A stretch of 14,293 nucleotides of DNA, taken from the NCBI GenBank assembly GCA_946406585.1, contig CAMJLI010000033.1, forward strand, positions 1 through 14,293, in the 5' to 3' direction. The notes beneath the pieces were generated by a model. The model was not told the origin of the DNA, did not search any database, and saw only the letters and a program-made list of their open reading frames with translations. The translations under genes and the position numbers were made by a program. This document shows positions 1,870 to 14,293 of this stretch, in pieces (the first letter of the stretch is position 1; every line of letters begins with the position of its first letter). This DNA comes from an uncultured Prevotellaceae bacterium. Its GTDB lineage: Bacteria; Bacteroidota; Bacteroidia; Bacteroidales; Bacteroidaceae.

Positions 1870-1901
1870 GGGGCAGGCATTAGCCTGCACACCCACTTCC
1901 T
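1861..1901. terminator. Hairpin shared by two convergent gene ends, probable bidirectional terminator
   Basis: An interrupted inverted repeat. The inner stem is GCAGGC/GCCTGC (1873-1878 with 1883-1888) around an ATTA loop. The stem continues after small bulges with GGG/CCC (1869-1871 with 1892-1894) and AGGAAGT/ACTTCCT (1861-1867 with 1895-1901). About 16 base pairs in total. The stem takes in the last codons and stop of the peptidase gene and reaches the first base of the receptor's stop on the other strand. There is no clear T-run on either side, so it is not a textbook intrinsic terminator; the role is inferred from its place between convergent genes. Confidence 0.5.
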
Positions 1902-4342
1902 CAGAATTGACAGGAAAATGATGCCATCAACGACCGTCCCCGCTGGAAATGCGGGGCATGCTGGTAATTGGGTCCGCAGATGTAATGGTCTGTATTGAAG
2001 ATGTTTTCGCAGTCCAAGGATATTTGGAAATTATGTTTGTAACCATACTTGACACCAAGGTCGAATAGCATCTTCGGATCCACGAAGAAGTCTTCTTCTT
2101 CAACATCATTATAATTCAGTTTCCTTCCGATATATGAAGTGTGGCCATACACCTTGAGCTCGTGGGTCTTTCCCTGAAGCAATTTCCATGCACCATGGAG
2201 ATTGAGTGTGAAATGAGGCACGCCAGCGACCATTTCCTTGGATTGGTTATAATAATAATGCTCAGAACTGATGTCGCGGCAATAATAGAGTGAGAGGATG
2301 GCATTAAAGCGGTTGTATGCATAGCCAACATTGCCCTCCATGCCGATATTGATGAGCTTTCCCGTGTTTTTATAGGAATATCCTTCTCTTTCCTGCCAGC
2401 ATAGCAGATTGGAATATCTGTTGTAAAAGAGGTTGACCTCATAATTCAAGTGCTGCGGCGCGACCTTTCCCATGGCTGTTAGCTGAATGGCAGACAAATG
2501 TTGTGGCTTCAAGGTCTCATAGCCTGTCTTTGTTATGAAGCGATAGTAAAAGGACAAGTCTGCATACGCCTCAGAATAAGACAGTTTGAGACTGAAGCGC
2601 TCACTTGGCACATACATCAATGCCAATCGTGGAGAGAAAGACTTCACAGCATCTTCTCCTTGCCGATATTTAAAGTCATATCGGCCACCTACATTCATGA
2701 TGAGTTGTGGAAGGAAATAGTGCTTTTCCTGTACATAGAATGAGAGGATTCTTTCCTGGCCGGTGTCGGTAAATTCATCTTCCTCTATAAAACCAGACCC
2801 GATTTCATGAAAACCAGACCCCCAATAAACAACGCTTGGCTTAAGCGAAAACTTCTCATATTGCCAGCCTGCCAAAATATTTCCTTTAGAATTGCCTATC
2901 TGGTAGTCGGCAGCCGCCCTGGCATACCCACCCATCGTGTGCTCTTTACGATGCGAGACACTAAACATTCCTTTCTGGATTTTCTCCTCATACCTGAGGT
3001 TGCCTTCTTCGTCCAACAAATATTCGTCAAATCTTTCATTCAGAAGTGGACTCACATTAATTACAGAATCATAATCCACAACATAGTTGGTCAATTTGTA
3101 CCAGTCGCTGTAGAATGAGGCTTCAAGGTGTATTTTTTTAAACTGACGTGTATAGGCTATTTCAGCATGAGTGGATTCATTCCCATTTCCTGGCTTGACA
3201 TCACTAATGGGACCATATCTATCGTAATCATAACCACCATAGAGTCTGGTATGCTTTAATACCTTCTTGACATTCTTTTTGCTGAACATCAGGTCAAACC
3301 CCTTGAGCCGAAAAGTAAAGCCAACATCATACGCCGGCATATCCTTGTAGGCATCAACATATATTTTGTCGGGATTGAAAAAATACCATTTATTGGCACC
3401 ATCTTCTTCAATATATGACCTACTATCCTTAAGATACCCTTTACCATCACCAAAATGACGTATTTGCCCATCAGATTTGTAGATGGAAGCCCATACGAAA
3501 ATATCTGCATCCATGAACTGCGTGCCCATCGTGAAGTCAGCCTTGTGGGTGTTGTAAGTGCCATATCCGTATTTCACCTTCACTCCATCAACATCCCTGC
3601 CGCTTTTGGTGATTATATTGACCACCGCCGACAATGCCACATTGCCATACAAGGAGGAAGCAGGGCCACGAAGCACTTCTATGTGGTCGATTTTCTCCGT
3701 ACTGACAGAATAGCTTGTAGGGCCTGTGTTGTCAAAACGGGTGTTCAGACGATGACCGTCCTCCATGATCAAGATGAGTTCCTGCGACTGGGAGTATGCG
3801 CCATGCATCGACATGTTCAATTGTTCATCAATGGCGGTGACCTCTGCCATGCCCGGAACGTAGGCAGCGAGTATCTGCCCCAAGTTCTTGTTGTAGCCCA
3901 GTTCTTCAATCATCTCTGCCGTGATGATGGTGATGGGAACAGGAGCCTCGTTCAAGGTTTCACTTTGGCTGGATGCCGTGGTGATGGTGGCGACCATGCC
4001 CTCCTTGAGTCTGTTGACGATGTCCATAAAACGGGCGGGGTCTTCCGTGGAGTTGTAGTAGTTGTTGAGTTTCACCAACTGCTCCGCATAATATTGCGCC
4101 TCCTCATCCTTGTCTTCACCAAGGTAGCATAGAGCCAATAGGCGGTATGCGCTCTGCTTCAGACTACCCTCAAAGTTGTCTATGTTTTCCTTCAACAGTT
4201 GGATGGCTTGTTCAAAATGGCCTATTCCATATTCACTCTCGGCCTCATTGTATATTTGCCGGGAGGCACTCTCCTGTGCATTGACGCTAAGAGACAGCAA
4301 GCAGAGCACTATCAACAAGAACAGGTGCAACTTCTTTTTCAT
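1901..4342 (-). CDS. TonB-dependent outer-membrane receptor with N-terminal TPR-like extension
   Basis: 813 residues. Residues 1-22 are a signal peptide (KKK, a leucine-rich core, then SVNA before Q23). Residues about 24-112 are helical and TPR-like (regular A/Y/L spacing, e.g. AYRLLALCYLGEDKDEEA). The plug runs from about 127 to 248 with typical motifs: APVPITIITAEMI, a QELILIMEDGHRLN stretch, and IEVLRGPASSLYGN followed by AVVNIITKSG. The rest is a beta-barrel rich in aromatic residues, ending in phenylalanine as outer-membrane barrels do. Length and form fit a siderophore/cobalamin/colicin-I-type receptor rather than SusC (about 1000 residues, paired with SusD); no SusD is nearby. It is the last gene of the operon and its ATG overlaps the kinase stop by 4 bases, so it is expressed with the signalling genes and may be their sensor, target or both. 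Ligand unknown. The barrel part is AT-rich compared with the plug part. Confidence 0.93.
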   Translation of the reverse strand: MKKKLHLFLLIVLCLLSLSVNAQESASRQIYNEAESEYGIGHFEQAIQLLKENIDNFEGSLKQSAYRLLALCYLGEDKDEEAQYYAEQLVKLNNYYNSTEDPARFMDIVNRLKEGMVATITTASSQSETLNEAPVPITIITAEMIEELGYNKNLGQILAAYVPGMAEVTAIDEQLNMSMHGAYSQSQELILIMEDGHRLNTRFDNTGPTSYSVSTEKIDHIEVLRGPASSLYGNVALSAVVNIITKSGRDVDGVKVKYGYGTYNTHKADFTMGTQFMDADIFVWASIYKSDGQIRHFGDGKGYLKDSRSYIEEDGANKWYFFNPDKIYVDAYKDMPAYDVGFTFRLKGFDLMFSKKNVKKVLKHTRLYGGYDYDRYGPISDVKPGNGNESTHAEIAYTRQFKKIHLEASFYSDWYKLTNYVVDYDSVINVSPLLNERFDEYLLDEEGNLRYEEKIQKGMFSVSHRKEHTMGGYARAAADYQIGNSKGNILAGWQYEKFSLKPSVVYWGSGFHEIGSGFIEEDEFTDTGQERILSFYVQEKHYFLPQLIMNVGGRYDFKYRQGEDAVKSFSPRLALMYVPSERFSLKLSYSEAYADLSFYYRFITKTGYETLKPQHLSAIQLTAMGKVAPQHLNYEVNLFYNRYSNLLCWQEREGYSYKNTGKLINIGMEGNVGYAYNRFNAILSLYYCRDISSEHYYYNQSKEMVAGVPHFTLNLHGAWKLLQGKTHELKVYGHTSYIGRKLNYNDVEEEDFFVDPKMLFDLGVKYGYKHNFQISLDCENIFNTDHYICGPNYQHAPHFQRGRSLMASFSCQF

Positions 4343-5157
4343 TTCCTGATGGGTATGGTGAATGTAAAGGCAGAACCTTCGCCCTCGGTGGAGTCAAAGG
4401 ATATTGTCCCCCCATGCTTGTTTTCTATAATGTCGCGAGTGATGCCTAAGCCGAGACCTGTTCCCTGCCCTATTGGCTTGGTGGTGAAGAAGTTCTCGAA
4501 GAGCCTCCGACGCACTTCCTCGTTCATCCCTTCACCATTGTCGGCTATGCTGATGATGAGGTTGGAGCCCTCCTTCCTCACATCGACAGACACCTCGGGA
4601 TGATAGTCTTCCCCTGCTGTCTGTTTCTTTTTCCAAACGGTATAAAAGGCATTGTTCATGACATTGAGCACGGCGCGGCTAAGGTCCTGTGGAATGACCA
4701 TGATCATGGGCAGTGCCTCTTCATATTTCTCGTGGATGCTGACATTGAAGTCCTTGCAGTTGGCACGCATGGCATGATACGAGAGCCACACATACTCCTT
4801 TACAATCTTGCACACATCGGTAGGCAGGAAGTCGCCATCCTTTCCCCTCGACGCCCTGAGGATGTTTTGTATGATGCTGATGGCACGCTCTCCATGCTCC
4901 ACTATCTTTGCCATGTTCTCCTTCAAGTCGGCTATGATGTCGGCTGCATCCTCACGGTCTTCCTCTGGTAAGTTGTCCTCATTGTCCTCAACGATTTCGG
5001 CAAGGTCCTTCAAGAGTTTGTCAGACAACTTGCTGAAGTTGATGACGAAGTTCAGCGGATTTTGTATCTCGTGGGCTATGCCGGCACTCAGCGAACCTAA
5101 AGATGCCAATTTCTCCTGTTGCTGGAGCTGTTGTTTTAGCTGGTCAATATTTTCCAT
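4339..5157 (-). CDS. Soluble sensor-less histidine kinase (HisKA/HATPase core)
   Basis: 272 residues, essentially only a kinase core. Residues 1-18 are a short glutamine-rich coiled coil. The H-box is SAGIAHEIQNPLNF with the phospho-accepting H29. The DHp continues with an acidic linker (about 56-72) and a KIVEHGERA helix, a form common in Bacteroidetes kinases. The ATPase domain has the N-box (VMNNAFYTV, N169), the G1 box DNGEG (206-210), an F-box-like NFFTTKP and the G2 box GTGLGLG (232-238). All catalytic motifs look intact. There is no transmembrane segment or sensor domain, so it should be cytoplasmic and depend on a partner for input. An in-frame TAA upstream supports this start. The preceding gene ends 32 bases upstream and encodes a related core lacking the histidine, its likely partner. 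The likely phosphate acceptor is the response regulator-phosphatase starting at 10830; that link is inferred. Confidence 0.93.
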   Translation of the reverse strand: MENIDQLKQQLQQQEKLASLGSLSAGIAHEIQNPLNFVINFSKLSDKLLKDLAEIVEDNEDNLPEEDREDAADIIADLKENMAKIVEHGERAISIIQNILRASRGKDGDFLPTDVCKIVKEYVWLSYHAMRANCKDFNVSIHEKYEEALPMIMVIPQDLSRAVLNVMNNAFYTVWKKKQTAGEDYHPEVSVDVRKEGSNLIISIADNGEGMNEEVRRRLFENFFTTKPIGQGTGLGLGITRDIIENKHGGTISFDSTEGEGSAFTFTIPIRK

Positions 5158-5189
5158 AGTGCTAAATACTATCGTTTAATTTTGAACAC

Positions 5190-8021
5190 CTATTTATTTT
5201 TCTTGACAGGTAAAGTGATGACAAACTCACTGTATTCGTCTTTTACCGAATCCACAAGTATGTCGCCACCATGATTTTGCACAATCTCACGGCTGAGGTA
5301 AAGGCCTACCCCTGACGCCTCACTTGTGGTCTTGGTGGTGAAGAACGGATCGAAAATCTTGTCGATGATTGTCTTCTCGATGCCTATGCCATTGTCGCGA
5401 ATGCTTATATTGACAGTGTTGTCCTTTCGGGTTACATTCATGTCTATCTCCGGGGAATACGCCTGGCCTACATTCTGCAGCTTTTGCGCTTTCCTCACCA
5501 CGGCATGGATGGAATTGCCCAAAAGGCTCATGATGGTCTTGCTCAGTTGGTCGGCATTGCCATTGATGGTCAATGTGTCTTGAGTGTCATTGAAGATGAC
5601 CTTTATGCCATACTGCCCTATCTCCTGCTTGTAGAACTCGTGGAGCATGCTCCAGTCCTGGCGTATCACCGCCATGAGATCCATCGGCACTATGCCGCCC
5701 GACCTGTCTTTCAGCATCTCCTCCATCGCCTTCAGCGTCCGGGTGGTGTTCTGTCCGTGCTCGCCCACTTTCTGCAAGTTCGTCGTCAGCATTTCGAGCA
5801 CTTCCATCGTGTCTTCGTAGTTGTCTTCATCGATGTTTTCCTTTTCATCCTCCACATTCGCCTTGACATCCCTCACAAGCCCTTCGGAGAGCTTGGCGAA
5901 GTTGTTGATATAGTTCAGGGGGTTGAGAATGCGGTCGATAAGTCCCTGGGTAAGTTTGCCCGCAGTAGCCATCTTCTCCAGCCTTACCACCTCCGCAGAG
6001 CGTTCCTTAACAAGTGTCTCCAGTCTGAACTTCTCCTTCTTCAGCCTGCGCAGACGCATCTGGAAGAGCCACAACACCAAGAGTATCAGCAGCAGTACAT
6101 AGAGCAGGTTCATGTACCACCTGTAGTAGAACGGCGGTTTGATGCGGAATTTGATGCTCGTCACATCAGTGATGCGGTTTTGGGAATCGATGGCCTGGAC
6201 GGAAAAGGTGTAGTAACCAAAGTTGAGATTCACAAAACTCGCTGAAGTGTTTCTGTTCCAACTGCTCCAGTTGCCATTGTTCAGACGGTAGCGATACTGT
6301 GTCTCGCCCGTGATAGATGGATAGTCGAGCGAGAAGGTGAAGTGCAGGTCGTTCTCGTTGTGTCGAAGTTCCGGCAACACCTCCGGCATGTCTCCGAAAC
6401 CACCCCAAAGGATGCTGTCGCTGCCCAGCTTGACAGACCGGATATATAGTTTTGGATACAATTTGAGGGAGGGGTCTTGCGCTTGCGTGTTGATGGCTGC
6501 CAGTCCCTTGTCGTTTCCCAGCCATATTTCATTCTCTCTTGAGTAGATGGCGCTGACAGGCATCTCCTTGATGGGAAAGAGGAACCTGCCCATGTCGTCA
6601 AGTCTCTTGCCGTCTTTCCATCTGTAGAGCTTTTTCCCCTCGATGTCCGTCAACCAGGTGACACCTTTGTAATCGACATACGACACGAGTGGATATGGGA
6701 AGGGCGTGGTGTTCTCGGCACTGACTACGGTTGCCTGTCCGTCGGTCAGCACCACCGTTTGCATGTTCTCCTCATTATCCTTTCCCTTGTAGATTTGGAA
6801 TGTGCTGTCATCTGCCTTCTTGAACCGAACCGTTCCATACAGGCTCTGCGCCCAGATGGTGCCTTCCTTGTCTTTCACTATTTTCTTGACATTGTCCAGG
6901 CTGCACAGTTTCCTGCGATTCTGCCCATCGGCTTGAATCAGAAAGACACCCTGGGTTTCACCACAGTAGATTTGGTTGCCCTCGTCGAGCACTGTCATGG
7001 TGTTGGCATTTGTGAGATGTCGCACTCTCCCGTCGGGTAACACCCTGAACAAGCCGTCGGCTGTTGCCGCCAGCAGTCCGTTGCCACTTTTTTTCAATTC
7101 CCAACAAGCATGTTTCACCTCAGGCACGCTCACGAAGCGATACCCCTCCTTGCGGAAAAGGCCGTCATCGGTGCCGGCATAGATTGTGCCATTGGCGGAC
7201 TCGATGGAGAGCAACGACCCTTGAAGTCCTTCACGAGAAGTAAAGCGAGAGAAGACTGACGGGACGTGAACCACAAAGATGCCCTTGCTTGTTGCACCCC
7301 ATAGATATCCACGCTCATCGTAGGTGGCGTAAGAGACATCATTGGAACAAAGACCGTTGGCTTCGGTGATGGAGTATGACGTGTGGTTCTTCTCATCATT
7401 GATTATGACACCTGCATTTTTCATCACAATGGCCTTCATGCCATCACCCAGTGACAAAACCAGAACCGTGTCGCTCTTGACCACTTCCTTTTCACCCCGC
7501 TCCAGAGCATCCACGTCAACCACGTCGAGCATTCCTATTTTGAGCGACTCCTTGTCCACCTCCTTTACTTTTGTCACCTTGTCATCCTTCACTTGATAGA
7601 TGGCGGCATTGCCGGCGACAAAATGGAGAATGCCATCCTTTTCATAGATTTCATCTACCTCACCACGGAAGAGGTCGGAACTCCCTATTCTCTTGAGCGT
7701 GACCTCACCATTTGCCTTTCTCACCACCTTGCCAAAAAAGTTGTAGCCACCCACCCAGATGTTGTTGTCTGTTGCCCTGTAGACAACGGTGGCACGCGTG
7801 ATGTCCGGCATGTGCACCATGCGCCATTCGGCATAGTCATAGTATAGCAATCCCTCGAAATTGGCAACAAACACATTGCCATACTCGTCGGTCTCGATGT
7901 CGTAGTTGGTATTGTTGGCGTGGTAGTCCTCCACTGTGTAATTGCGGAAGAAGGGAATGCCTTGCCCATGGGCCACGGTCACAAGCAGCAGAGTCGCCAT
8001 CATCATAGCAAGTCTTTTCAT
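5190..8021 (-). CDS. Periplasmic propeller/Y_Y_Y sensor with histidine-kinase-like core lacking the phospho-acceptor histidine
   Basis: 943 residues. Signal peptide 1-20 (ends AHGQ). Residues about 25-510 hold repeated propeller blades of the two-component-regulator type (for example NNIWVGGYN, GYLWGATSKGIFV, GTIYAGTDDGLFR, NEIWLGNDKGLAAI). Residues about 555-628 are a Y_Y_Y domain (YRYRLNNGNWSSW, then GYYTFSVQA). One membrane helix lies at about 636-654, followed by a coiled-coil linker and a kinase core. At the H-box the sequence is GLIDRILNPLNY, so D696 (codon GAC, 5934-5936) replaces the catalytic histidine. N-box N836, G1 box DNGIG (876-880) and a G2-like SGVGLYL (903-909) remain, so ATP binding is plausible. 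The protein ends at the ATPase domain; no receiver or AraC output as in hybrid systems. Its ATG overlaps the upstream stop by 4 bases. Domain calls are firm; the pseudokinase role is inferred. Confidence 0.93.
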   Translation of the reverse strand: MKRLAMMMATLLLVTVAHGQGIPFFRNYTVEDYHANNTNYDIETDEYGNVFVANFEGLLYYDYAEWRMVHMPDITRATVVYRATDNNIWVGGYNFFGKVVRKANGEVTLKRIGSSDLFRGEVDEIYEKDGILHFVAGNAAIYQVKDDKVTKVKEVDKESLKIGMLDVVDVDALERGEKEVVKSDTVLVLSLGDGMKAIVMKNAGVIINDEKNHTSYSITEANGLCSNDVSYATYDERGYLWGATSKGIFVVHVPSVFSRFTSREGLQGSLLSIESANGTIYAGTDDGLFRKEGYRFVSVPEVKHACWELKKSGNGLLAATADGLFRVLPDGRVRHLTNANTMTVLDEGNQIYCGETQGVFLIQADGQNRRKLCSLDNVKKIVKDKEGTIWAQSLYGTVRFKKADDSTFQIYKGKDNEENMQTVVLTDGQATVVSAENTTPFPYPLVSYVDYKGVTWLTDIEGKKLYRWKDGKRLDDMGRFLFPIKEMPVSAIYSRENEIWLGNDKGLAAINTQAQDPSLKLYPKLYIRSVKLGSDSILWGGFGDMPEVLPELRHNENDLHFTFSLDYPSITGETQYRYRLNNGNWSSWNRNTSASFVNLNFGYYTFSVQAIDSQNRITDVTSIKFRIKPPFYYRWYMNLLYVLLLILLVLWLFQMRLRRLKKEKFRLETLVKERSAEVVRLEKMATAGKLTQGLIDRILNPLNYINNFAKLSEGLVRDVKANVEDEKENIDEDNYEDTMEVLEMLTTNLQKVGEHGQNTTRTLKAMEEMLKDRSGGIVPMDLMAVIRQDWSMLHEFYKQEIGQYGIKVIFNDTQDTLTINGNADQLSKTIMSLLGNSIHAVVRKAQKLQNVGQAYSPEIDMNVTRKDNTVNISIRDNGIGIEKTIIDKIFDPFFTTKTTSEASGVGLYLSREIVQNHGGDILVDSVKDEYSEFVITLPVKKNK

Positions 8022-9652
8022 TGGCCATTCTCCTTTCCTTGTATGTCCAAGAACGACTCATAAGGCACGTCCTTTCCTATATAGTAGTTCCACTCATCCC
8101 TGGTAAGGTCGCGTTTCAACTTTTTCCTTATGGTATCCACCATGATGGGAATGGAGATGTTGAAGGCTATCAGGTTGCCCTGGGCATCACCCATCCAGAA
8201 GGTGTTCTTTGCTGAGTCGTAGCAGAAGTGCATGATCCATTTGTTGATTTCCACCAACGGCATTGGCTCCACCTTGTCATTGTCCACCAACCACAGGTTC
8301 ACGGTGCCATCATAACTGGCTGAGAAGAGCCGCCTGCCATTCAACTTCATTTTCGAAACACGCGAGCGATGACCTATGAGATTTTTCTTCATCCCTTTCT
8401 TGTCGATCACCCAGATGTTGCCATCGCTCATGCCATAAGCCTCTATGCCTGCATTTTTCGATTCACAATAGGCAGTCACCTTTCCTTCCACAGGCACTTT
8501 CTTGGTGTCGTAACTGTCAAGACCTTTCACCAAGTGCATAATGCCCTTGTCGTCGAAGAGCAGAGGCAGGCCACTTTTTCGCGAACTCATCAAGACTCGG
8601 AAAGGGAGTTGCTTTTTGCCGCTCACTGTCTTGTGCTTCAAGTCTATAAGCGCAAGTGCCTTTTCTCCAATGACCAACAAGTTCTTGTCGCCGATTTCAT
8701 GCACCCGCATGGGGTGTGTCACATTGTCAACGTCTATGATGCTGGTTGTCTTGAGGTCATTGCCTATTATCACCAAGTGTCCTGTTCTGCTTATGGCATA
8801 AAAATCTCCCGTATTTTTGTCTACCAACACATCGCGGAAGTCATACTTGTGGTTGGAGAAGAGGACGGTTGACTGCAGCAGGTTGCCCTGCCGCTCGCTC
8901 AGTATTATCTCGCCATAGTTGCTTACGGAGACAAGAGAGTTTTCCCGTTGTGGCACACATTCCACATTCATCACCGCCCCAATGTGCTCCGACCATGAAA
9001 GCTTGCTCTGGCTCAACTGCATGAGTGCCTGGAAGACAGCAGGAATGTAGATGTCGCCATTGTATCGTGTAGTATATACATAAGAAGCATACCCCAGCAG
9101 GTTGGCTATGTCCATGTTGCCTCCTTGTGCCTGGATGGTGGCGATGGAGCCCAAGGAACGCCCAAGAGCCACATAGCTCAGGGTGTCGGCCTTGCGCTTG
9201 GAAAATTCAGCTTGAATGCGCTGATGCTCAGCCTGCACACGCTGATTGTCAGCCACTTGCTGCTGTTCTTCTGCCAGTTTCCGCTGACTTTCAGCCACCT
9301 CCGAGGCTTCCAAAGCCTTCTTCTCCGAGGCAAGGGCATTGCGCTCCGCCTCAATGGCATTGAGGCGTTCTTTCTCCGAGCGCAGACGCATCTCATTAGC
9401 CACCCTCGTCTGCCGGAGGGCTTCCTCGCGCTTCTCGTCAGAGATTTCCCTCTGCTCGTTGGCGATGTCCTCCATCTGGGCGCTGACGCTTCTGTCCACC
9501 GCCGAGCGCATCTCCTGCTTCTTCAACCTGTCTATCTGCGACTGAAGAACGTCCACCTTGTTGCGCTCCGACAGCCAGCAGGAGAAGCCCACGGCAGCGA
9601 GTCCCGCCAGCAGGACAACTGCACACGCCGTTATTATTTGCTTCTTATCCAC
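8018..9652 (-). CDS. Membrane-anchored coiled-coil/WD40-like propeller protein
   Basis: 544 residues. DKK is followed by one hydrophobic segment (about 6-27), a charged coiled coil rich in E, R, Q and A (about 30-157), a helical linker (about 158-213, with LGRSLGSIATIQA and ANLLGYASYVY) and a beta-propeller region. The clearest WD40-like blade is at about 427-456 (GHRSRVSK to SASYDGTVNLW). The end, LTRDEWNYYIGKDVPY (516-531), resembles the LT-EEW-Y---PY tail of WD40 proteins in the STAND family, and the linker also recalls theirs, but there is no NTPase. The start is GTG at 9652; it is the first start codon after an in-frame stop, and the next ATG (residue 48) would lose the anchor. By the positive-inside rule the propeller should be periplasmic, alongside that of the next gene. 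No lipobox is visible. Function unknown; a sensory or scaffold role is inferred. Confidence 0.82.
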   Translation of the reverse strand: MDKKQIITACAVVLLAGLAAVGFSCWLSERNKVDVLQSQIDRLKKQEMRSAVDRSVSAQMEDIANEQREISDEKREEALRQTRVANEMRLRSEKERLNAIEAERNALASEKKALEASEVAESQRKLAEEQQQVADNQRVQAEHQRIQAEFSKRKADTLSYVALGRSLGSIATIQAQGGNMDIANLLGYASYVYTTRYNGDIYIPAVFQALMQLSQSKLSWSEHIGAVMNVECVPQRENSLVSVSNYGEIILSERQGNLLQSTVLFSNHKYDFRDVLVDKNTGDFYAISRTGHLVIIGNDLKTTSIIDVDNVTHPMRVHEIGDKNLLVIGEKALALIDLKHKTVSGKKQLPFRVLMSSRKSGLPLLFDDKGIMHLVKGLDSYDTKKVPVEGKVTAYCESKNAGIEAYGMSDGNIWVIDKKGMKKNLIGHRSRVSKMKLNGRRLFSASYDGTVNLWLVDNDKVEPMPLVEINKWIMHFCYDSAKNTFWMGDAQGNLIAFNISIPIMVDTIRKKLKRDLTRDEWNYYIGKDVPYESFLDIQGKENGQ

Positions 9653-9666
9653 GCCGCATGCTGTGG

Positions 9667-10830
9667 TTATGGTCGTTTGATGGCGAGCAACGTGATGTCG
9701 TCACTCTGTTCTTCTTCTCCTGCAAAAGCTTTCACGTCGGCTTTCACAGCATCTATCATCTCCTGGCAGCCAGACTGGGCATGACGGGCCAAGACAGCCT
9801 TCAACCTTTCTGAACCATACTCCTCGCATTTGGAATTGATAGCCTCCGTCACGCCATCGGTATAGAGCAGCAATGTGTCTCCGTGCTCCAGATGTATGGT
9901 GTCTTCTGTGTACTTGTAGTCTTCGACAAAACCCACCAATACATTCTTGGTGACGGGCAATCTGTGGATGCTGCCGTCGGCTTTCACCACATAGGGCGGG
10001 TTGTGACCGGCATTGGTATAGGTCACCTCGCCTGTGCGGAGGTTGTATATGCCGTAGAAGACGGTGACGAACATGCAGTTGACCGACTCCTCCACCAAGA
10101 GGCTATTGCAGTAGGTGATACATTCCGAGGGGGACACACCCCTGATGCCGGTGGCGCGGATGAGCGTGCGGCTGACAGCCATGAAAATGGCGGCCGGAAC
10201 ACCCTTTCCGCTGACATCAGCGATGACAAAGCTGATATGGTCGTCGTCGATGCGGAAAAAGTCGTAGAAGTCACCTCCCACATCCTTTGCAGCATTCATC
10301 GACGCTGCAATGTCTATCTGTTGCGCATTTTCAGGGAAAGGAGGGAAGATGCGAGGCAAGATGGCCTGCTGTATCTCACTTGCCACGGCAAGGTCGCTCT
10401 TGATGGACTCCAACTGCATGTGCTCCTGCTGCATCGCCTTGATGAAGTTGATCTGCTCGATGGCTTTCTCGATGGTCACGCTCAAGTCATCGAGGTCGAT
10501 GGGCTTTGTCGCAAAGTCGAAAGCACCATTGTTCATCGCCTGACGGATATTGCCCATGTCGCCATAGGCGGAAACCATGATGCATTTCATCGAAGGTCTC
10601 TGCATCTCGTTGATTTTCGTCAACAGCGACAGTCCGTCCATCTCGGGCATGTTGATGTCGCTCAAGATGATGTCGAAGTCCTTTTCCTTTAGAAGCATCG
10701 TGAGAGCTTCCAAGCCATTGTGGGCAAAATGGAATTCGTATTCCCCTTTTCTAATTTTCCTTCTGAAGTATTGTGTCAACAACAGTTCGAGGTCAAGTTC
10801 GTCGTCAACACTTAGTATCTTTACAGCCAT
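9667..10830 (-). CDS. Response regulator fused to SpoIIE/PP2C serine phosphatase (RsbU-like output)
   Basis: 387 residues. The receiver domain (about 1-125) has the acidic pair D9/D10, phospho-acceptor D58 in LSDINMPEMDG, S87 in MVSAYGD and K109 in TKP. A helical linker (about 126-155) leads into the PP2C-type phosphatase domain, with AKDVGGDFYDFF (D187), ADVSGKGVPAA (D205), TNAGHNPP (272-279), LYTDGVTEA (D325) and a final SDDIT (D377/D378); these aspartates bind the metals in the family. Proteins of this design remove phosphate from STAS-domain antagonists or similar partners when the receiver is phosphorylated, acting in the cytoplasm. No such partner lies in the window. It is the first gene of the operon and ends 14 bases before the WD40 gene. 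It is the only receiver here, so the likely target of the kinase at 4339-5157 (inference). Fold and motifs are clear. Confidence 0.94.
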   Translation of the reverse strand: MAVKILSVDDELDLELLLTQYFRRKIRKGEYEFHFAHNGLEALTMLLKEKDFDIILSDINMPEMDGLSLLTKINEMQRPSMKCIMVSAYGDMGNIRQAMNNGAFDFATKPIDLDDLSVTIEKAIEQINFIKAMQQEHMQLESIKSDLAVASEIQQAILPRIFPPFPENAQQIDIAASMNAAKDVGGDFYDFFRIDDDHISFVIADVSGKGVPAAIFMAVSRTLIRATGIRGVSPSECITYCNSLLVEESVNCMFVTVFYGIYNLRTGEVTYTNAGHNPPYVVKADGSIHRLPVTKNVLVGFVEDYKYTEDTIHLEHGDTLLLYTDGVTEAINSKCEEYGSERLKAVLARHAQSGCQEMIDAVKADVKAFAGEEEQSDDITLLAIKRP

Positions 10831-10858
10831 TTCTCTTGATTATGTTCTATTTAGTTTG

Positions 10859-10893
10859 CGAAAATAAGGAAAAAAAACAAGATTATCAACAAA
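10859..10893 (-). promoter_or_regulatory. Weak candidate promoter for the signalling operon
   Basis: Read on the minus strand, TATTTTCG (10866-10859) differs by one base from the Bacteroidetes -7 consensus TAnnTTTG, and a TTTG (10893-10890) lies 23 bases upstream; the usual spacing is about 19-21. The whole 10831-10910 stretch is very AT-rich and sits between the stem-loop terminator and the ATG at 10830, so a promoter for the operon must lie here or further upstream. Another near match, TAATCTTG (about 10886-10879), is possible. The exact site is uncertain. Confidence 0.25.
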
Positions 10894-10910
10894 AAATGAC
10901 AAAATAAAAC

Positions 10911-10956
10911 AAAAATGCCGTTTTTGCATCCCACTAAATACAAAAACAGCATTTTC
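10911..10956 (-). terminator. Intrinsic-type terminator of the GH89/acetyltransferase transcript
   Basis: A 15-base-pair inverted repeat (10912-10926 with 10941-10955) with a 14-base loop. On the minus-strand RNA the single mismatch becomes a G-U pair, so the stem is complete. It is followed on that strand by a T-rich run (about 10916-10901). It lies downstream of the 9-base repeat array, so the array should be inside the 3' untranslated part of the transcript ending here. The stem is AT-rich apart from its GC centre. The mismatch pairing as wobble only on the minus strand supports this orientation. Confidence 0.6.
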
Positions 10957-10980
10957 CTGACAATATTATTGGCCAGAATC

Positions 10981-11151
10981 AGAGTAATCAGAGTAATCAG
11001 AGTAATCAGAGTAATCAGAGTAATCGGAGTAATCAGAATAATCAGAATTTTCAGAGTACTCAGAATTTTCAGAGTACTCAGAGTATTCAGAGTACTCAGA
11101 GTATTCCGAGTACTCCGAGTATTCCGAGCTCTCCGAGTATTCCGAGCTCCC
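10981..11151. repeat. 19-unit tandem array of 9-base repeats
   Basis: Nineteen consecutive 9-base units with no spacers. Units 1-5 are identical (AGAGTAATC), units 6-8 are variants, units 9-14 mostly alternate AGAGTACTC with AGAATTTTC or AGAGTATTC, and units 15-19 begin with C (CGAGTACTC, CGAGTATTC, CGAGCTCTC, CGAGCTCCC). The array thus grades from AT-rich and uniform at the left to GC-richer and diverged at the right, with an 18-base higher-order period in the middle. Several units contain palindromes (GAGTACTC in units 9, 11, 13 and 15; GAGCTC in units 17 and 19). It begins 8 bases after the acetyltransferase stop and ends about 150 bases before the operon start codon. Because 9 is a multiple of 3, it gives a false open frame of repeated I/R/V/F/L residues. 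Confidence 0.95.
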
Positions 11152-11159
11152 CCCTTAGC

Positions 11160-12233
11160 CTATAACTTGATGTATATCTTGCGCTTGTAGAGTATATACC
11201 CCAGCAAGAAGTTGAGAAGCACAAAATAGATGGCATAGGAGAGTGATGCCCACTGCGGATGGCTGATGACACCATGTATGCCGTTGAACACCCATTCGCT
11301 CACGCCAAAATGCCCGAGCACGATGGCAAGCACCTCGCTGGAGACATACAAGAACAAGGGATTGACGCCAAAGACATGGAAAATGCCACACCACCACTTC
11401 TTGCCACGAATGTCGATGACATACATCAACACCCCTTGCAGCAGGGATGCCAACCCACAAGTCATGAGCACATAACTGGGACTCCATATACGCTTGTTGA
11501 GAGGCAGCAGATAAGAGAGCAGATAACCTGCTATCACCAGGACAGCACCCAGGAGCAGTCCGTTCATCACCTTGGCATCCACCGTCTTGGCCTTCTTCAG
11601 CAACATGCCGAGATAGAATCCCAACATGGTATGCGCAACCGACGGGATGGTGCCCAACAACCCCTCAGGGTCTACTGGGCTCTTGTGATAGAGATGCTCT
11701 GCCCCGAAAAGCCATGTGTCCACCCTTGCCAAGACATTGGAAGGGTCTTGGGCATAGCCATTGCCCAACCACAGTATGATGGCATACGCCACAAGCAATG
11801 CTGCCGACAAATGCAACACATATCGGTGGTTGATGACAAGGGCAAACAACGATACGATGCCATAACACAAGGCAATGCGCTGAAGGACAGCCCACAACCG
11901 CAGGTGCCCAAAGCAGTTGACATCCCCTCCTATCGCCAAGTCGAGCCAGTTGATGAAGAGCCCGATGAGAAACAGCAACAGGGTGCGCCTGACAATCTTC
12001 CGAAACACCACCCCCGTCATGCGGAACTGGTATTTGGAAAGTGACAGATAGGTGGACACCCCCATGATGAAAAGGAAGAAAGGAAAAACAAGGTCGCATG
12101 GGGTCATGCCATTCCATTTGGAATGTTGAAGCGGCATGAACGATTCCCCATAGCCGTTGTTTACAAGAATCATGCCTGCCACGGTGAGTCCTCGAAGTAT
12201 GTCGAGCGACAACAGTCTTTTTGATTTGCCCAT
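11160..12233 (-). CDS. HGSNAT/NagX-like transmembrane N-acetyltransferase (DUF5009 type)
   Basis: 357 residues, polytopic, with about ten hydrophobic segments. The start LLSLDILRGLTVAGMILVNN and the following HSKWNGMTPCDLVFPFFLF match the family of human heparan-alpha-glucosaminide N-acetyltransferase and bacterial NagX; H37 in HSKWNG corresponds to the catalytic histidine of the human enzyme. Other family landmarks are GLLGTIPSVAHTMLGFYLG, KRIWSPSYVLMTCG and NPLFLYV. Enzymes of this type take acetyl from cytoplasmic acetyl-CoA and put it on an amino sugar on the other side of the membrane; here that would be a periplasmic glucosamine-ended glycan (inference). The gene begins 2 bases after the GH89 stop, so the two are translationally linked. 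Length is slightly short but complete for bacterial members. Some NagX proteins may act in GlcNAc transport instead, which remains possible. Confidence 0.88.
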   Translation of the reverse strand: MGKSKRLLSLDILRGLTVAGMILVNNGYGESFMPLQHSKWNGMTPCDLVFPFFLFIMGVSTYLSLSKYQFRMTGVVFRKIVRRTLLLFLIGLFINWLDLAIGGDVNCFGHLRLWAVLQRIALCYGIVSLFALVINHRYVLHLSAALLVAYAIILWLGNGYAQDPSNVLARVDTWLFGAEHLYHKSPVDPEGLLGTIPSVAHTMLGFYLGMLLKKAKTVDAKVMNGLLLGAVLVIAGYLLSYLLPLNKRIWSPSYVLMTCGLASLLQGVLMYVIDIRGKKWWCGIFHVFGVNPLFLYVSSEVLAIVLGHFGVSEWVFNGIHGVISHPQWASLSYAIYFVLLNFLLGYILYKRKIYIKL

Positions 12234-12235
12234 TG

Positions 12236-14293
12236 TTATTCAGTCAATAAGGTTATTGCTTGTCTTGCCATATCCACAGGCTGCCCTGCGGCGATACTGG
12301 AATAGGTGCGCGGAGTGGTGTTGAGCACCCACTGCTCTTCAGTGGGGTAATAGTCGAGCACCACATCCTGCGGCAGAGCCATTTGGAACAGTTCGTCGGA
12401 TGTCTTGTTGCTGTTTGCGCCACCTCCCAACATGTCGGGCTTGGGAGAACCCATCGTCTGCAAGTCTTTGCGGAGATGGTCGAAAAACATGTTCCATCGA
12501 GGCGCATAGAAGTCGGCAAGCAACCCTTGCCATTCCTTGTGTGCATAGTCGCGAAGTCCGCCGGTGTCTGCGCAGTAGCGGTTGCCCCATGTGGTGATCT
12601 GCACGCGGGCATTCCATTCATAGAGTCTCTTTTCCTCTTCGGTGTCGCCACAGGCACGAGCCATCTCCAGCCACCGTCCCAAACGGAACTCAGGACGAGT
12701 GCCCAGAAGCCGGTCTTGCATCTCCAGAAGTTGGAGGAACCTCTTGGATGCCTTGTCGAAGTCGGATGGTGATGCCGCCTTGTAGGCAGCCACCACCATT
12801 TGGTATTGCTTGCGTGCCTGGTCGGCCACGGCCTGGCGAGTGATGTCCACCAAGTCGTATTCGAAATTGTTGTTGCCACGATACTTTTCCGCCACTTCAT
12901 TAATGAGTCTCGCAGCCTCCAACGTGCTGTTGGGGTCGTAGTAGTTGCGCATCTTCGACCAACTGGAAGCCTGGAAGTTGTTGAGCGTGGGACGGCCACA
13001 GAAGATGCTCTCGTGAGGACCTTGCTGGTTGTTCCCCAAGGGACAGTTGTATATCCCTTCTACCAATATCTGCCATGCCTTCAACAGTTTGGGGTCATCG
13101 CTGCCATAACGGGCCTTGACATACGTTCTTATCCACTCCTCCTTGGTGAAGGACTCCGGCCGCCAAGGCAATTCGCTCATCAGTTCGAACATCACGGGGT
13201 TGTTCTCCGACCCTTCCATAGTGAAGCCTATTCCACACATCTTGCTTGCCAGGGGGTGTGTCTTGGTGAGTTGGAAGTTATGAAGCAGCTGGTCCATGCG
13301 GCCATGCAAGCCCACGTTGGCGCCGAAGTTCTCCAACAGGCAGAACAGCCATCGGTGCTCGCCATACCCCTGAGGCCGCTTCCACACGGAGGGAGCGCCC
13401 CACATGGGGCGGCACTCGCTGAAGAGGTCGAGTATCAGCAAGTCCTCGGGATTGAGCACGTCGAGCATCTGCTGCCGTGGGTTTTCCGTCCATCCCTGCA
13501 CCACCCATACAGCTTTGGGGTTGGCGCCCTTCATGGCCTTCAGCAGTGCTACGGCTGCGGCGCCATAGTCTATCCTGCTGTCGTCGTTGGATTCATGGAA
13601 GGGGTCTATGGAGTAATAGTCGGCCTTGCCGAACAAGCGTGTCAGTTCCTTGTAATACAAGTCGGCTATCTCCCCAAAGCGGCTGTCGGTGGGCAGGAGG
13701 TTGGCTGGTCTCTGAAAGCCATTCCACAAGCCTGCATCAGCCACATCGAGTCCCAGACGCGCCTTGGCATCGTGGGGCACCATGCCGGCATACCCCGGCA
13801 AGACAGGATGCATGCCGTATTCCTTCATCCGCTGGAGGATTTGCTTCTGCAACCGCTCCTGACGCTGATACCAAGAGAGGGGCAAGGGGCCGCCCCACCC
13901 TTCCAGATTGTTCATCTCCCACCACGCCAAGAAGGCTGGACCGGCGATGAACTTGCCTATCTCCTCCTCGGAATAGCCCAACTTGAGCAACATGTTGCGC
14001 CACACACATTCCTCGCCCACAATGGCCAGAGGCATGTTCACCCCGTGCAGTGCCATCCAGTCGATTTCCTGCTGCCACCGCTCCCAGTCCCAGAATGCCA
14101 TGCTGTAGGAAAAAGTGCAGTAATTGAAATCATAACGCAGCGACAATGCTGTCTCATGACGTTCACGTTGGATGACAGGCGGCAGTGGCGAGGGCAATTT
14201 TGCTTTCATGTTGTTCCACGTGAGATGCACGCCGGCATGGTATTTCAGATACCAGTTGATGCCGGAAGCGATGTTCACCCACGTGTTGCCCCT
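12236..14293 (-). CDS. GH89 alpha-N-acetylglucosaminidase (NAGLU-like), 5' end missing
   Basis: The frame is open to the right edge; the GTG at 14278 is internal because homology to NAGLU (GNTWVNIASGINWYLKY) already runs across it. About 685 residues are visible. Landmarks shared with human NAGLU and bacterial GH89 enzymes are FWDWERWQQEIDWMALHGVN, GPAFLAWWEMNNLEGW, GPLPLSWYQRQ and MHPVLPGYAGMVP. The two catalytic glutamates should be the E in DPFHESND (about visible residue 234) and the E in GFTMEGSENN (about 360). The enzyme removes terminal alpha-linked GlcNAc from glycans such as heparan sulfate ends or gastric-type mucin. The signal peptide and any extra N-terminal domain are outside the window; a periplasmic or surface location is expected. 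Two bases downstream lies the acetyltransferase gene, which could supply its N-acetylated substrate. Family certain, natural substrate not. Confidence 0.94.
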   Translation of the reverse strand, partial: RGNTWVNIASGINWYLKYHAGVHLTWNNMKAKLPSPLPPVIQRERHETALSLRYDFNYCTFSYSMAFWDWERWQQEIDWMALHGVNMPLAIVGEECVWRNMLLKLGYSEEEIGKFIAGPAFLAWWEMNNLEGWGGPLPLSWYQRQERLQKQILQRMKEYGMHPVLPGYAGMVPHDAKARLGLDVADAGLWNGFQRPANLLPTDSRFGEIADLYYKELTRLFGKADYYSIDPFHESNDDSRIDYGAAAVALLKAMKGANPKAVWVVQGWTENPRQQMLDVLNPEDLLILDLFSECRPMWGAPSVWKRPQGYGEHRWLFCLLENFGANVGLHGRMDQLLHNFQLTKTHPLASKMCGIGFTMEGSENNPVMFELMSELPWRPESFTKEEWIRTYVKARYGSDDPKLLKAWQILVEGIYNCPLGNNQQGPHESIFCGRPTLNNFQASSWSKMRNYYDPNSTLEAARLINEVAEKYRGNNNFEYDLVDITRQAVADQARKQYQMVVAAYKAASPSDFDKASKRFLQLLEMQDRLLGTRPEFRLGRWLEMARACGDTEEEKRLYEWNARVQITTWGNRYCADTGGLRDYAHKEWQGLLADFYAPRWNMFFDHLRKDLQTMGSPKPDMLGGGANSNKTSDELFQMALPQDVVLDYYPTEEQWVLNTTPRTYSSIAAGQPVDMARQAITLLTE

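Follow-up and report, generated by a model that had tools for sequence, protein, structure and literature searches.

Organization of the locus

Contig CAMJLI010000033.1 of an uncultured Prevotellaceae bacterium (a Prevotella of the rumen; GenBank assembly GCA_946406585.1), of which a stretch of 14,293 nucleotides was analysed (the window), harbours five minus-strand genes that form a conserved cassette and whose products are predicted to range from a TonB-dependent outer-membrane receptor to a cytoplasmic phosphatase. The first gene (9667..10830) codes for a cytoplasmic response regulator-phosphatase (RRP), composed of a receiver and a SpoIIE/PP2C-type phosphatase as assigned from Pfam and conserved residues. 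It is followed by a gene with a GTG start (8018..9652) for a protein with an N-terminal membrane anchor, a long coiled coil and a WD40 propeller (WD40 protein), which is most likely periplasmic. The third gene (5190..8021) encodes a propeller pseudokinase (pHK) combining a Reg_prop/Y_Y_Y propeller, one membrane helix and a cytoplasmic kinase part (Pfam, hydropathy), and the fourth (4339..5157) a soluble histidine kinase (sHK) with an intact H-box. The product of the last gene (1901..4342) has a signal-peptide-like start, a tetratricopeptide repeat (TPR)-like domain (residues ~26-113), a linker, a plug and a TonB-dependent barrel (Pfam, AlphaFold), and is referred to as TPR-TBDT (TBDT, TonB-dependent transporter). 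The Pfam architectures are Response_reg and SpoIIE for RRP, Reg_prop, Y_Y_Y and HATPase_c without HisKA for pHK, HisKA and HATPase_c for sHK, and Plug and barrel for the receptor. A preliminary description of the window had reported five open reading frames (ORFs) of one direction here; positions and spacing agreed throughout, with gaps of 14 and 32 bases and two overlaps of 4 bases each.

A single transcription unit is plausible for the five genes, since a terminator-like hairpin (10956-10911, consensus scan) directly precedes RRP and the gene 3' of the operon, coding for an M16 peptidase, is convergent; such hairpins are commonplace in the window (20 found versus 11.8 expected). The likely promoter region of the operon (10831..10956, minus strand; consensus scan and sequence reading) lies behind this hairpin and contains what looks by eye like a Bacteroidetes-type promoter. 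An Rfam scan of the window yielded no matches.

Conservation of gene order and co-occurrence

The preliminary description had made its reading depend, beforehand, on the genes travelling together, and they do: their order recurs in 75 related loci. Of these, 55 were retrieved with the WD40 protein as query, on contigs titled Prevotella or Prevotellaceae without exception; 19 come from further genomes of the family, and L161 belongs to another family of the same order. Near-copies are included (e.g., L046/L047), L055 and L056 share one genome, and 70 pHK rows reduce to 65 clusters at 95% identity. Greedy longest-ORF gene calls hide some overlapped genes (sHK in several loci, a STAS gene of L098 and the second STAS gene of L161); locus counts based on tblastn are free of this effect.

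RRP was located on the same strand within 300 bases upstream of the WD40 gene in 70 of the 73 loci with room for it, the exceptions being L042 (gap of 536 bases), L089 (5.9 kb off, same direction) and the rearranged L104. Directly downstream of the WD40 gene, pHK was found in 66/67 loci with room, and sHK directly after pHK in 65/66; L104, in which RRP and sHK are divergent from pHK, WD40 and TBDT, is the sole exception to both. The TBDT follows sHK immediately in 47 of 60 loci with room as well as in L161. Ten of the remaining twelve loci (L028-L031, L040, L042, L044, L045, L050, L087) have a non-ribosomal peptide synthetase (NRPS) gene immediately after sHK, and the last two are L094, with the TPR domain on another contig, and L104. 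The L002 contig (uncultured Prevotellaceae bacterium RUG112) carries a near copy of the window operon (RRP 96%, WD40 90%, pHK 93%, sHK 97% and TBDT 97% identity). The five-gene arrangement is far beyond chance, since it recurs in dozens of genomes.

Co-occurrence was determined across 301 genomes of the same family. The nearest genome to the window (G001) has 30% of sampled 31-letter words in common with it. The WD40 protein was detected in 20 genomes (E 0.001), RRP in 19 (E 1e-100) and the TPR domain in 19 (E 1e-6). The RRP and TPR-domain sets are identical, that is, the same 19 genomes have both and the other 282 have neither, and they equal the WD40 set minus G236, whose cassette contig is just 3.5 kb long (Fisher p 3.5e-29 for RRP versus WD40 and for TPR domain versus WD40). 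The five proteins very probably act in one process.

The response regulator-phosphatase and the two kinases

RRP matched Response_reg (2.5e-23) and SpoIIE (3.9e-55) in Pfam. Its receiver Asp58 is kept in 72/72 rows and the Asp residues of the PP2C motifs in 70-72 of the 72. Of the 69 sHK rows, 66 retain His29; in the remaining three, pHK had been mispicked from truncated loci (L012, L026, L041). Neither RRP nor sHK has a membrane helix (hydropathy). A His-bearing kinase and an Asp-bearing receiver, the hallmarks of two-component systems, are thus both encoded, and L104, where RRP and sHK stand side by side and apart from the rest, suggests that these two are a cognate pair.

The N-terminus of pHK is signal-peptide-like by eye, ahead of the presumably periplasmic propeller, and one membrane helix (639-657, hydropathy) separates the propeller from the kinase part; the solved hybrid sensor 3v9f matches residues 550-632. 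In all 70 rows the H-box reads GL[IV]DRILNP[LM]NY, with Asp in place of the phospho-accepting His. Since this Asp is invariant and N-box Asn N836 (70/70 rows) and G1 Asp D876 (69/70) are kept, pHK should bind ATP and is incapable of the usual phosphate acceptance, a state that has persisted across genera.

The TPR-TBDT receptor

The AlphaFold model of the receptor (mean predicted local distance difference test, pLDDT, 81.4) displays five TPR-like helices (26-113), a low-confidence linker, a plug and a barrel; the start of the protein is hydrophobic (hydropathy). At E 0.01, Pfam returned neither a TPR model nor an STN family for the receptor, the N-terminal domain of which is modelled as all-helical and TPR-like. 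The best Foldseek matches were FhuA, BtuB, Fiu, an enantiopyochelin receptor and FpvA, with XusA of Bacteroides ranking lower; a sequence search of the PDB yielded nothing beyond the colicin I receptor plug. As modelled, the fold is nearest to those of metallophore and cobalamin receptors.

This likeness bears on a rival explanation, namely that the locus serves the uptake of a metallophore or cofactor and has its own regulator, with the TBDT importing only and the kinases sensing the imported substrate in the periplasm via the pHK propeller, without direct signalling from receptor to WD40 protein. The proximity of the barrel to siderophore and cobalamin importers favours it, as does the fact that propeller kinases of the hybrid two-component system (HTCS) type bind periplasmic ligands. 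No recurrent gene for a binding protein or an inner-membrane importer was, however, seen in the runs, where most of the unlabelled neighbours lie outside the Pfam scans. We regard an uptake locus as unlikely.

With duplicate, overlapping retrievals of a gene removed, 67 relatives of the TBDT were compared by domain. Rows with barrels 24-31% identical to that of the window have TPR domains 30-62% and plugs 48-65% identical, and a barrel diverging more than TPR domain and plug would be expected if the ligand varied more than the inner partner. Tandem TPR-TBDT pairs are present in L021, L022 and L025. While the pHK of L033 is 83% identical to that of L021, the single TBDT of L033 is 34% identical to the first TBDT of L021 and 84% to the second. 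To judge from these identities, the receptor is therefore exchangeable, with receptors gained and lost.

The anchored WD40 protein

The WD40 protein was modelled by AlphaFold (mean pLDDT 76.5) with one helix spanning 3-49, a second, long one (74-153) and strands (218-498), and the model retrieved WD40 propellers in Foldseek. Hydropathy places a membrane helix at 6-24. Among 31 rows with a detectable helix (34 from two alignments, three of which were present twice), the flanking charge is more positive on the N side in 29, on the C side in one and even in one; the coiled coil and the propeller should therefore reside in the periplasm. The protein has relatives in the C-terminal halves of nSTAND1-WD40 proteins. 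An assignment as lipoprotein was rejected: a Cys near a lipobox-like stretch of the window protein corresponds to Gly in all 19 other rows of the alignment, and one distant relative, L087, also has Cys.

Partner-switching components

RRP carries a SpoIIE/PP2C phosphatase domain with its motif Asp residues, as is typical of partner-switching phosphatases. The likely phosphatase substrate, a STAS protein, is encoded in the same-strand run of four of the 75 loci (L089, L161, L098, L101). By BLAST, the run of L161 reads GlcNAc-epimerase-like, STAS, isoamylase, STAS, RsbW, DJ-1, RRP, WD40, pHK, sHK, TBDT, and that of L089 RRP, epimerase-like, STAS, isoamylase, STAS, RsbW, DJ-1, WD40, pHK, sHK, TBDT, NRPS. 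In L098 and L101 the STAS gene lies immediately 3' of the TBDT, with an RsbW-like match ~2 kb beyond it in L101; in L009 a STAS/RsbW match is located 6 kb away on the opposite strand. Furthermore, STAS and RsbW genes adjoin nSTAND1-type genes in L162 and L182, and each of the 50 cassette genomes searched encodes both a HATPase_c_2 and a STAS domain. Pfam revealed no STAS or RsbW gene adjacent to the operon in the window.

Isoamylase genes with STAS and/or RsbW beside them were observed in L089, L146, L161 and L182, three of which also have GlcNAc-2-epimerase-like and DJ-1 genes. These blocks suggest a partner-switch control of glycogen-type metabolism. From them another explanation arises, in which the cassette adjusts glycogen or storage metabolism to nutrient status, the targets of RRP being the STAS proteins encoded in the isoamylase/GlcNAc-epimerase block. 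Such a block, including RsbW and a pair of STAS genes, is indeed part of the run in L089 and L161 and lies beside the nSTAND1 type in L182, and in the cassette genome L146 isoamylase adjoins RsbW; yet isoamylase occurs in 2/75 loci as compared to NRPS in 20/75, and the window has none, which makes a storage switch distinctly improbable.

Linkage to NRPS and MATE genes

An NRPS or NRPS-like gene is part of the run in at least 20 of the 75 loci (a lower bound because of contig ends), positioned between sHK and TBDT or after the TBDT. The Pfam domain order is A-T-C-A-T in L119 and C-A-T in L037, from Prevotella ruminicola KHT3 (A, adenylation; T, thiolation; C, condensation). L006 was not counted: its lone ORF of 539 amino acids, matched by an NRPS adenylation query, stands upstream of the cassette. 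Seven of the 20 NRPS loci (L028, L030, L031, L040, L042, L044, L050) have, after the TBDT, a gene for a MATE-HATPase_c_2 fusion of 585-592 amino acids; L119, a contig without visible cassette, likewise has this fusion after its TBDT. The two fusion proteins scanned (L118:4699-6465 and L119:8091-9845) consist of MatE and an RsbW-like HATPase_c_2. Such a fusion of exporter and RsbW-like domain is not known to have been described.

At the genome level, a Condensation domain (E 0.001) was found in 15/20 genomes with the WD40 protein and in 46/281 others (Fisher 5.9e-8); among the cassette genomes, of which 50 of 54 were searched, 36 had one. The NRPS neighbours of the relatives suggest that the bacterium senses a small peptide-like molecule. 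Linkage to NRPS and a MATE exporter would also be compatible with a siderophore-like cycle and in this respect supports an uptake locus.

In a tree of 68 TBDT rows (quick method; 22 rows NRPS-labelled, rows at contig ends scored as NRPS-less) the window falls into a clade of 15 rows without NRPS, the sister clade of which (support 87) has NRPS in 12 of 13 rows. The NRPS label changes six times on this tree, compared to 18.9 times in shuffles. Since the NRPS-less clade is sister to an NRPS-rich one, the window cassette may be a listener derived from producers.

Separate NRPS clusters with a SpoIIE-type protein and STAS were observed in cassette genomes (L108, L114, L115, L124; NRPS of ~2100-2440 amino acids). 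L124, scanned in part, encodes SpoIIE fused to HATPase_c_2 in addition to STAS and MATE; L108 and L114 resemble it by BLAST, and L115 has SpoIIE and STAS without MATE. L106 has a similar NRPS with a C-terminal reductase-type (NAD_binding_4) domain. From rumen Bacteroidaceae, 934 NRPS clusters have been reported (PMC8241843); Prevotella clusters including NRPS were differentially expressed, and the accessible part of that report names neither receptor nor regulator (PMC8241843).

Order-wide occurrence of the WD40/TPR pair

Beyond the family, a WD40 profile (E 1e-20) detected 50 places in 49 of 295 Bacteroidales genomes (62 rows minus 12 second fragments of the same ORFs). In 45 of these places the ORF encodes 1,005-1,137 amino acids, the size of nSTAND1-WD40 proteins, and nSTAND1 plus WD40 were identified in 3/3 long relatives scanned; the nSTAND1 NTPase is absent from the window WD40 protein (Pfam). 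All 50 places have a TPR domain on the same strand within 5 kb downstream, a count tempered by the TPR profile having been built from ten WD40-adjacent loci, so that it favours that type, with the search itself being genome-wide. TPR matches without WD40 were obtained in 13 further genomes of the order. Half of the TPR ORFs are TBDT-sized and half are shorter, one of 564 amino acids possibly being a cut TBDT. The short ones (~340-390 amino acids) are below the size of a TonB transporter, and the one scanned (L164) proved to be an OMP_b-brl_2 barrel. Within seven ORFs upstream on either strand, a SpoIIE, STAS or RsbW-like gene was found at 11 of 20 hand-picked places (BLAST). In L166, RRP- and sHK-like genes are divergent from the nSTAND1-type gene.

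The constant core across the order is hence the WD40 protein together with a TPR-bearing outer-membrane protein. The preliminary description had combined the five genes into one pathway: that they belong together is borne out within the cassette, the topology fits such a route, and across the order the set of five is not what stays constant. The NRPS, the STAS/RsbW partners and the nSTAND1 relatives did not figure in that description. Given the order-wide TPR pairing and the upstream SpoIIE, STAS or RsbW-like genes, the WD40/TPR pair, often with a phosphatase or partner-switch companion, is wider than the Prevotella cassette, in which loss of the NTPase and gain of pHK and sHK look derived. 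The TPR protein adjoins the WD40 protein even where its ORF is too short for a TonB transporter, which indicates that the pair rather than import is the constant part and thereby speaks against an uptake locus. A second lineage (L164, L170, L175, L176, L177, L184; BLAST to L164) displays, in one direction, HAMP-SpoIIE, a protein resembling the weakly TIR-like one of L164, nSTAND1-WD40 and a TPR outer-membrane protein of small size.

nSTAND proteins are regarded as members of conflict systems, and on this premise the cassette could be an immunity-like or danger-sensing system that reports an attack at the receptor. Phages and bacteriocins enter cells via TBDTs, the barrels are very divergent, nSTAND1 is present in each long relative scanned, and a neighbour at one locus of the second lineage has a weak TIR_2 match (under cut-off). 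Against this, none of the five window proteins hit a PADLOC family at E 0.001, one nSTAND1 relative gave only marginal hits (18 bits), the NTPase is missing from the window version, and the linkage seen is to NRPS, plus isoamylase/epimerase genes in two cassettes. We regard danger sensing as very unlikely. An anti-phage system was also considered as the principal interpretation and was dismissed, none of the five proteins matching a PADLOC-DB model at E 0.001.

Proposed signalling route

The route that we favour, though by a small measure, runs from a ligand via TPR-TBDT and the WD40 protein to pHK/sHK, RRP and STAS/RsbW. A small extracellular ligand, probably metallophore-like or peptide-like and NRPS-made in many relatives, would bind the TPR-TBDT, and the periplasmic TPR domain would relay the state of the receptor to the inner-membrane-anchored coiled-coil/WD40 protein. 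The WD40 protein would then set the activity of pHK. Lacking the usual His for autophosphorylation, pHK would most likely pair with sHK, either driving or restraining it, and sHK would phosphorylate RRP on its receiver. The phosphatase domain of RRP (SpoIIE/PP2C) would then dephosphorylate a STAS antagonist, which in turn would capture an RsbW-like kinase and free the target of the latter. The preliminary description had likewise envisaged a route from the outer membrane through two periplasmic propellers to the cytoplasm: its topology is supported by the charge bias of the WD40 protein and the membrane helix of pHK, while we infer the contacts, the directions of signalling, a serial action of the propellers, the ligand and the output.

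Several observations weigh against the proposed route. In Pfam, the WD40 protein (544 amino acids) matched nothing but propeller models, all of them under cut-off. STAS was not found in the run of 71/75 loci, and HATPase_c_2 and STAS also occur in 12/14 and 10/14 control genomes, respectively. As regards an NRPS-made ligand, a Condensation match is absent from 5/20 genomes with the WD40 protein and from 14/50 cassette genomes, and the MATE fusion was not seen in 13 of the 20 NRPS runs within the downstream stretches read. An NRPS neighbour was seen in none of the 14 closest TBDT kin of the window, in two of which (L004, L036) less than 0.7 kb separates the TBDT from the contig end, and the nearest genome has Condensation domains on contigs C37 and C127 only, with the cassette on C71.

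A broader proposal, tentative and in our view somewhat doubtful, is that TPR outer-membrane protein and inner-membrane WD40 protein represent an undescribed order-wide system of signalling across the entire envelope. The WD40 protein would be a plug-in module that, in most lineages, bears an nSTAND1 NTPase towards the cytoplasm. Prevotella would have rewired it to a pseudokinase, a kinase and a PP2C phosphatase for sensing NRPS metabolites of the cell itself or its neighbours, with NRPS-less cassettes of the window type as listeners.

If the route proposed for the cassette is true, Bacteroidota gain an envelope-spanning signalling route without STN/anti-sigma or SusCD logic. The NRPS clusters of rumen Prevotella (20 cassettes) would obtain a candidate receptor and regulator, some of them also an exporter. 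Moreover, signalling from an outer-membrane receptor without FecR, as well as the role of a conserved His-less kinase, would become testable.

Flanking genes

Upstream of the operon (11160-14293), a gene for a NAGLU-type alpha-N-acetylglucosaminidase adjoins an acyltransferase-like gene (DUF5009, under the Pfam cut-off), a pair reminiscent of the heparan-degrading NAGLU/HGSNAT enzymes. Short imperfect repeats (CTCTGAGTA/CTCTGATTA type) were noticed by eye at 10970-11150, in the interval separating RRP from the acyltransferase gene and ahead of the long terminator-like hairpin. The NAGLU, acyltransferase and M16 peptidase genes were rejected as parts of the system, as among the loci compared they are common to L002 only.

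Comparison with known systems

Siderophore-type TonB-dependent receptors in which an extra periplasmic N-terminal domain signals ligand binding to an inner-membrane partner are known from FecA/FecR/FecI and FpvA/FpvR, and in pyoverdine signalling the cell produces its own ligand by NRPS. The window receptor resembles them in possessing the plug and barrel of TonB-dependent cell-surface signalling (Pfam, fold). The extra domain is, however, TPR-like rather than STN, the partner a WD40 propeller rather than an anti-sigma factor, and the output a two-component pair plus PP2C phosphatase; no gene for a FecR-like anti-sigma or extracytoplasmic function (ECF) sigma factor was found among the eight main window proteins scanned. 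The Reg_prop/Y_Y_Y propeller sensor is shared with HTCS/SusCD systems of Bacteroides. In contrast to these, two proteins share the kinase functions, the His is missing from the propeller protein and the receptor fold resembles siderophore and cobalamin receptors; neither a SusD-like lipoprotein nor an HTH/DNA-binding output domain is encoded in the window.

With regard to the output, partner switching of the RsbU/RsbP type and regulators such as the RssB type of Pseudomonas and SiaA are the closest models, according to which the SpoIIE/PP2C domain is expected to act on an RsbW-held STAS protein. Here, the phosphatase is tied to an outer-membrane receptor, probably via two propeller proteins, and STAS/RsbW are mostly encoded elsewhere; matches to NF045505 and NF038263, considered for comparison with regulators combining a response regulator and PP2C, were far under cut-off. 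The nSTAND1-coil-WD40 proteins with their TPR outer-membrane protein share a homologous WD40 half, the coiled coil, the TPR partner and the same order, and differ from the window version, which has no NTPase and has two kinases. In Bacteroidota, Dma (PMC13088901) likewise connects the outer membrane with the cytoplasm in signalling; as far as the accessible part of that source describes it, Dma is one protein targeting a sigma factor, compared to at least five proteins and a phosphatase here.

No description of the TPR-TBDT/WD40 pair or of this cassette was contained among the literature matches listed, which is weak evidence of absence. The cassette works like siderophore cell-surface signalling yet fails its defining features, STN and FecR, and has HTCS-like sensor parts without being an HTCS. 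The order-wide WD40/TPR pair could be more than a variant of known signalling.

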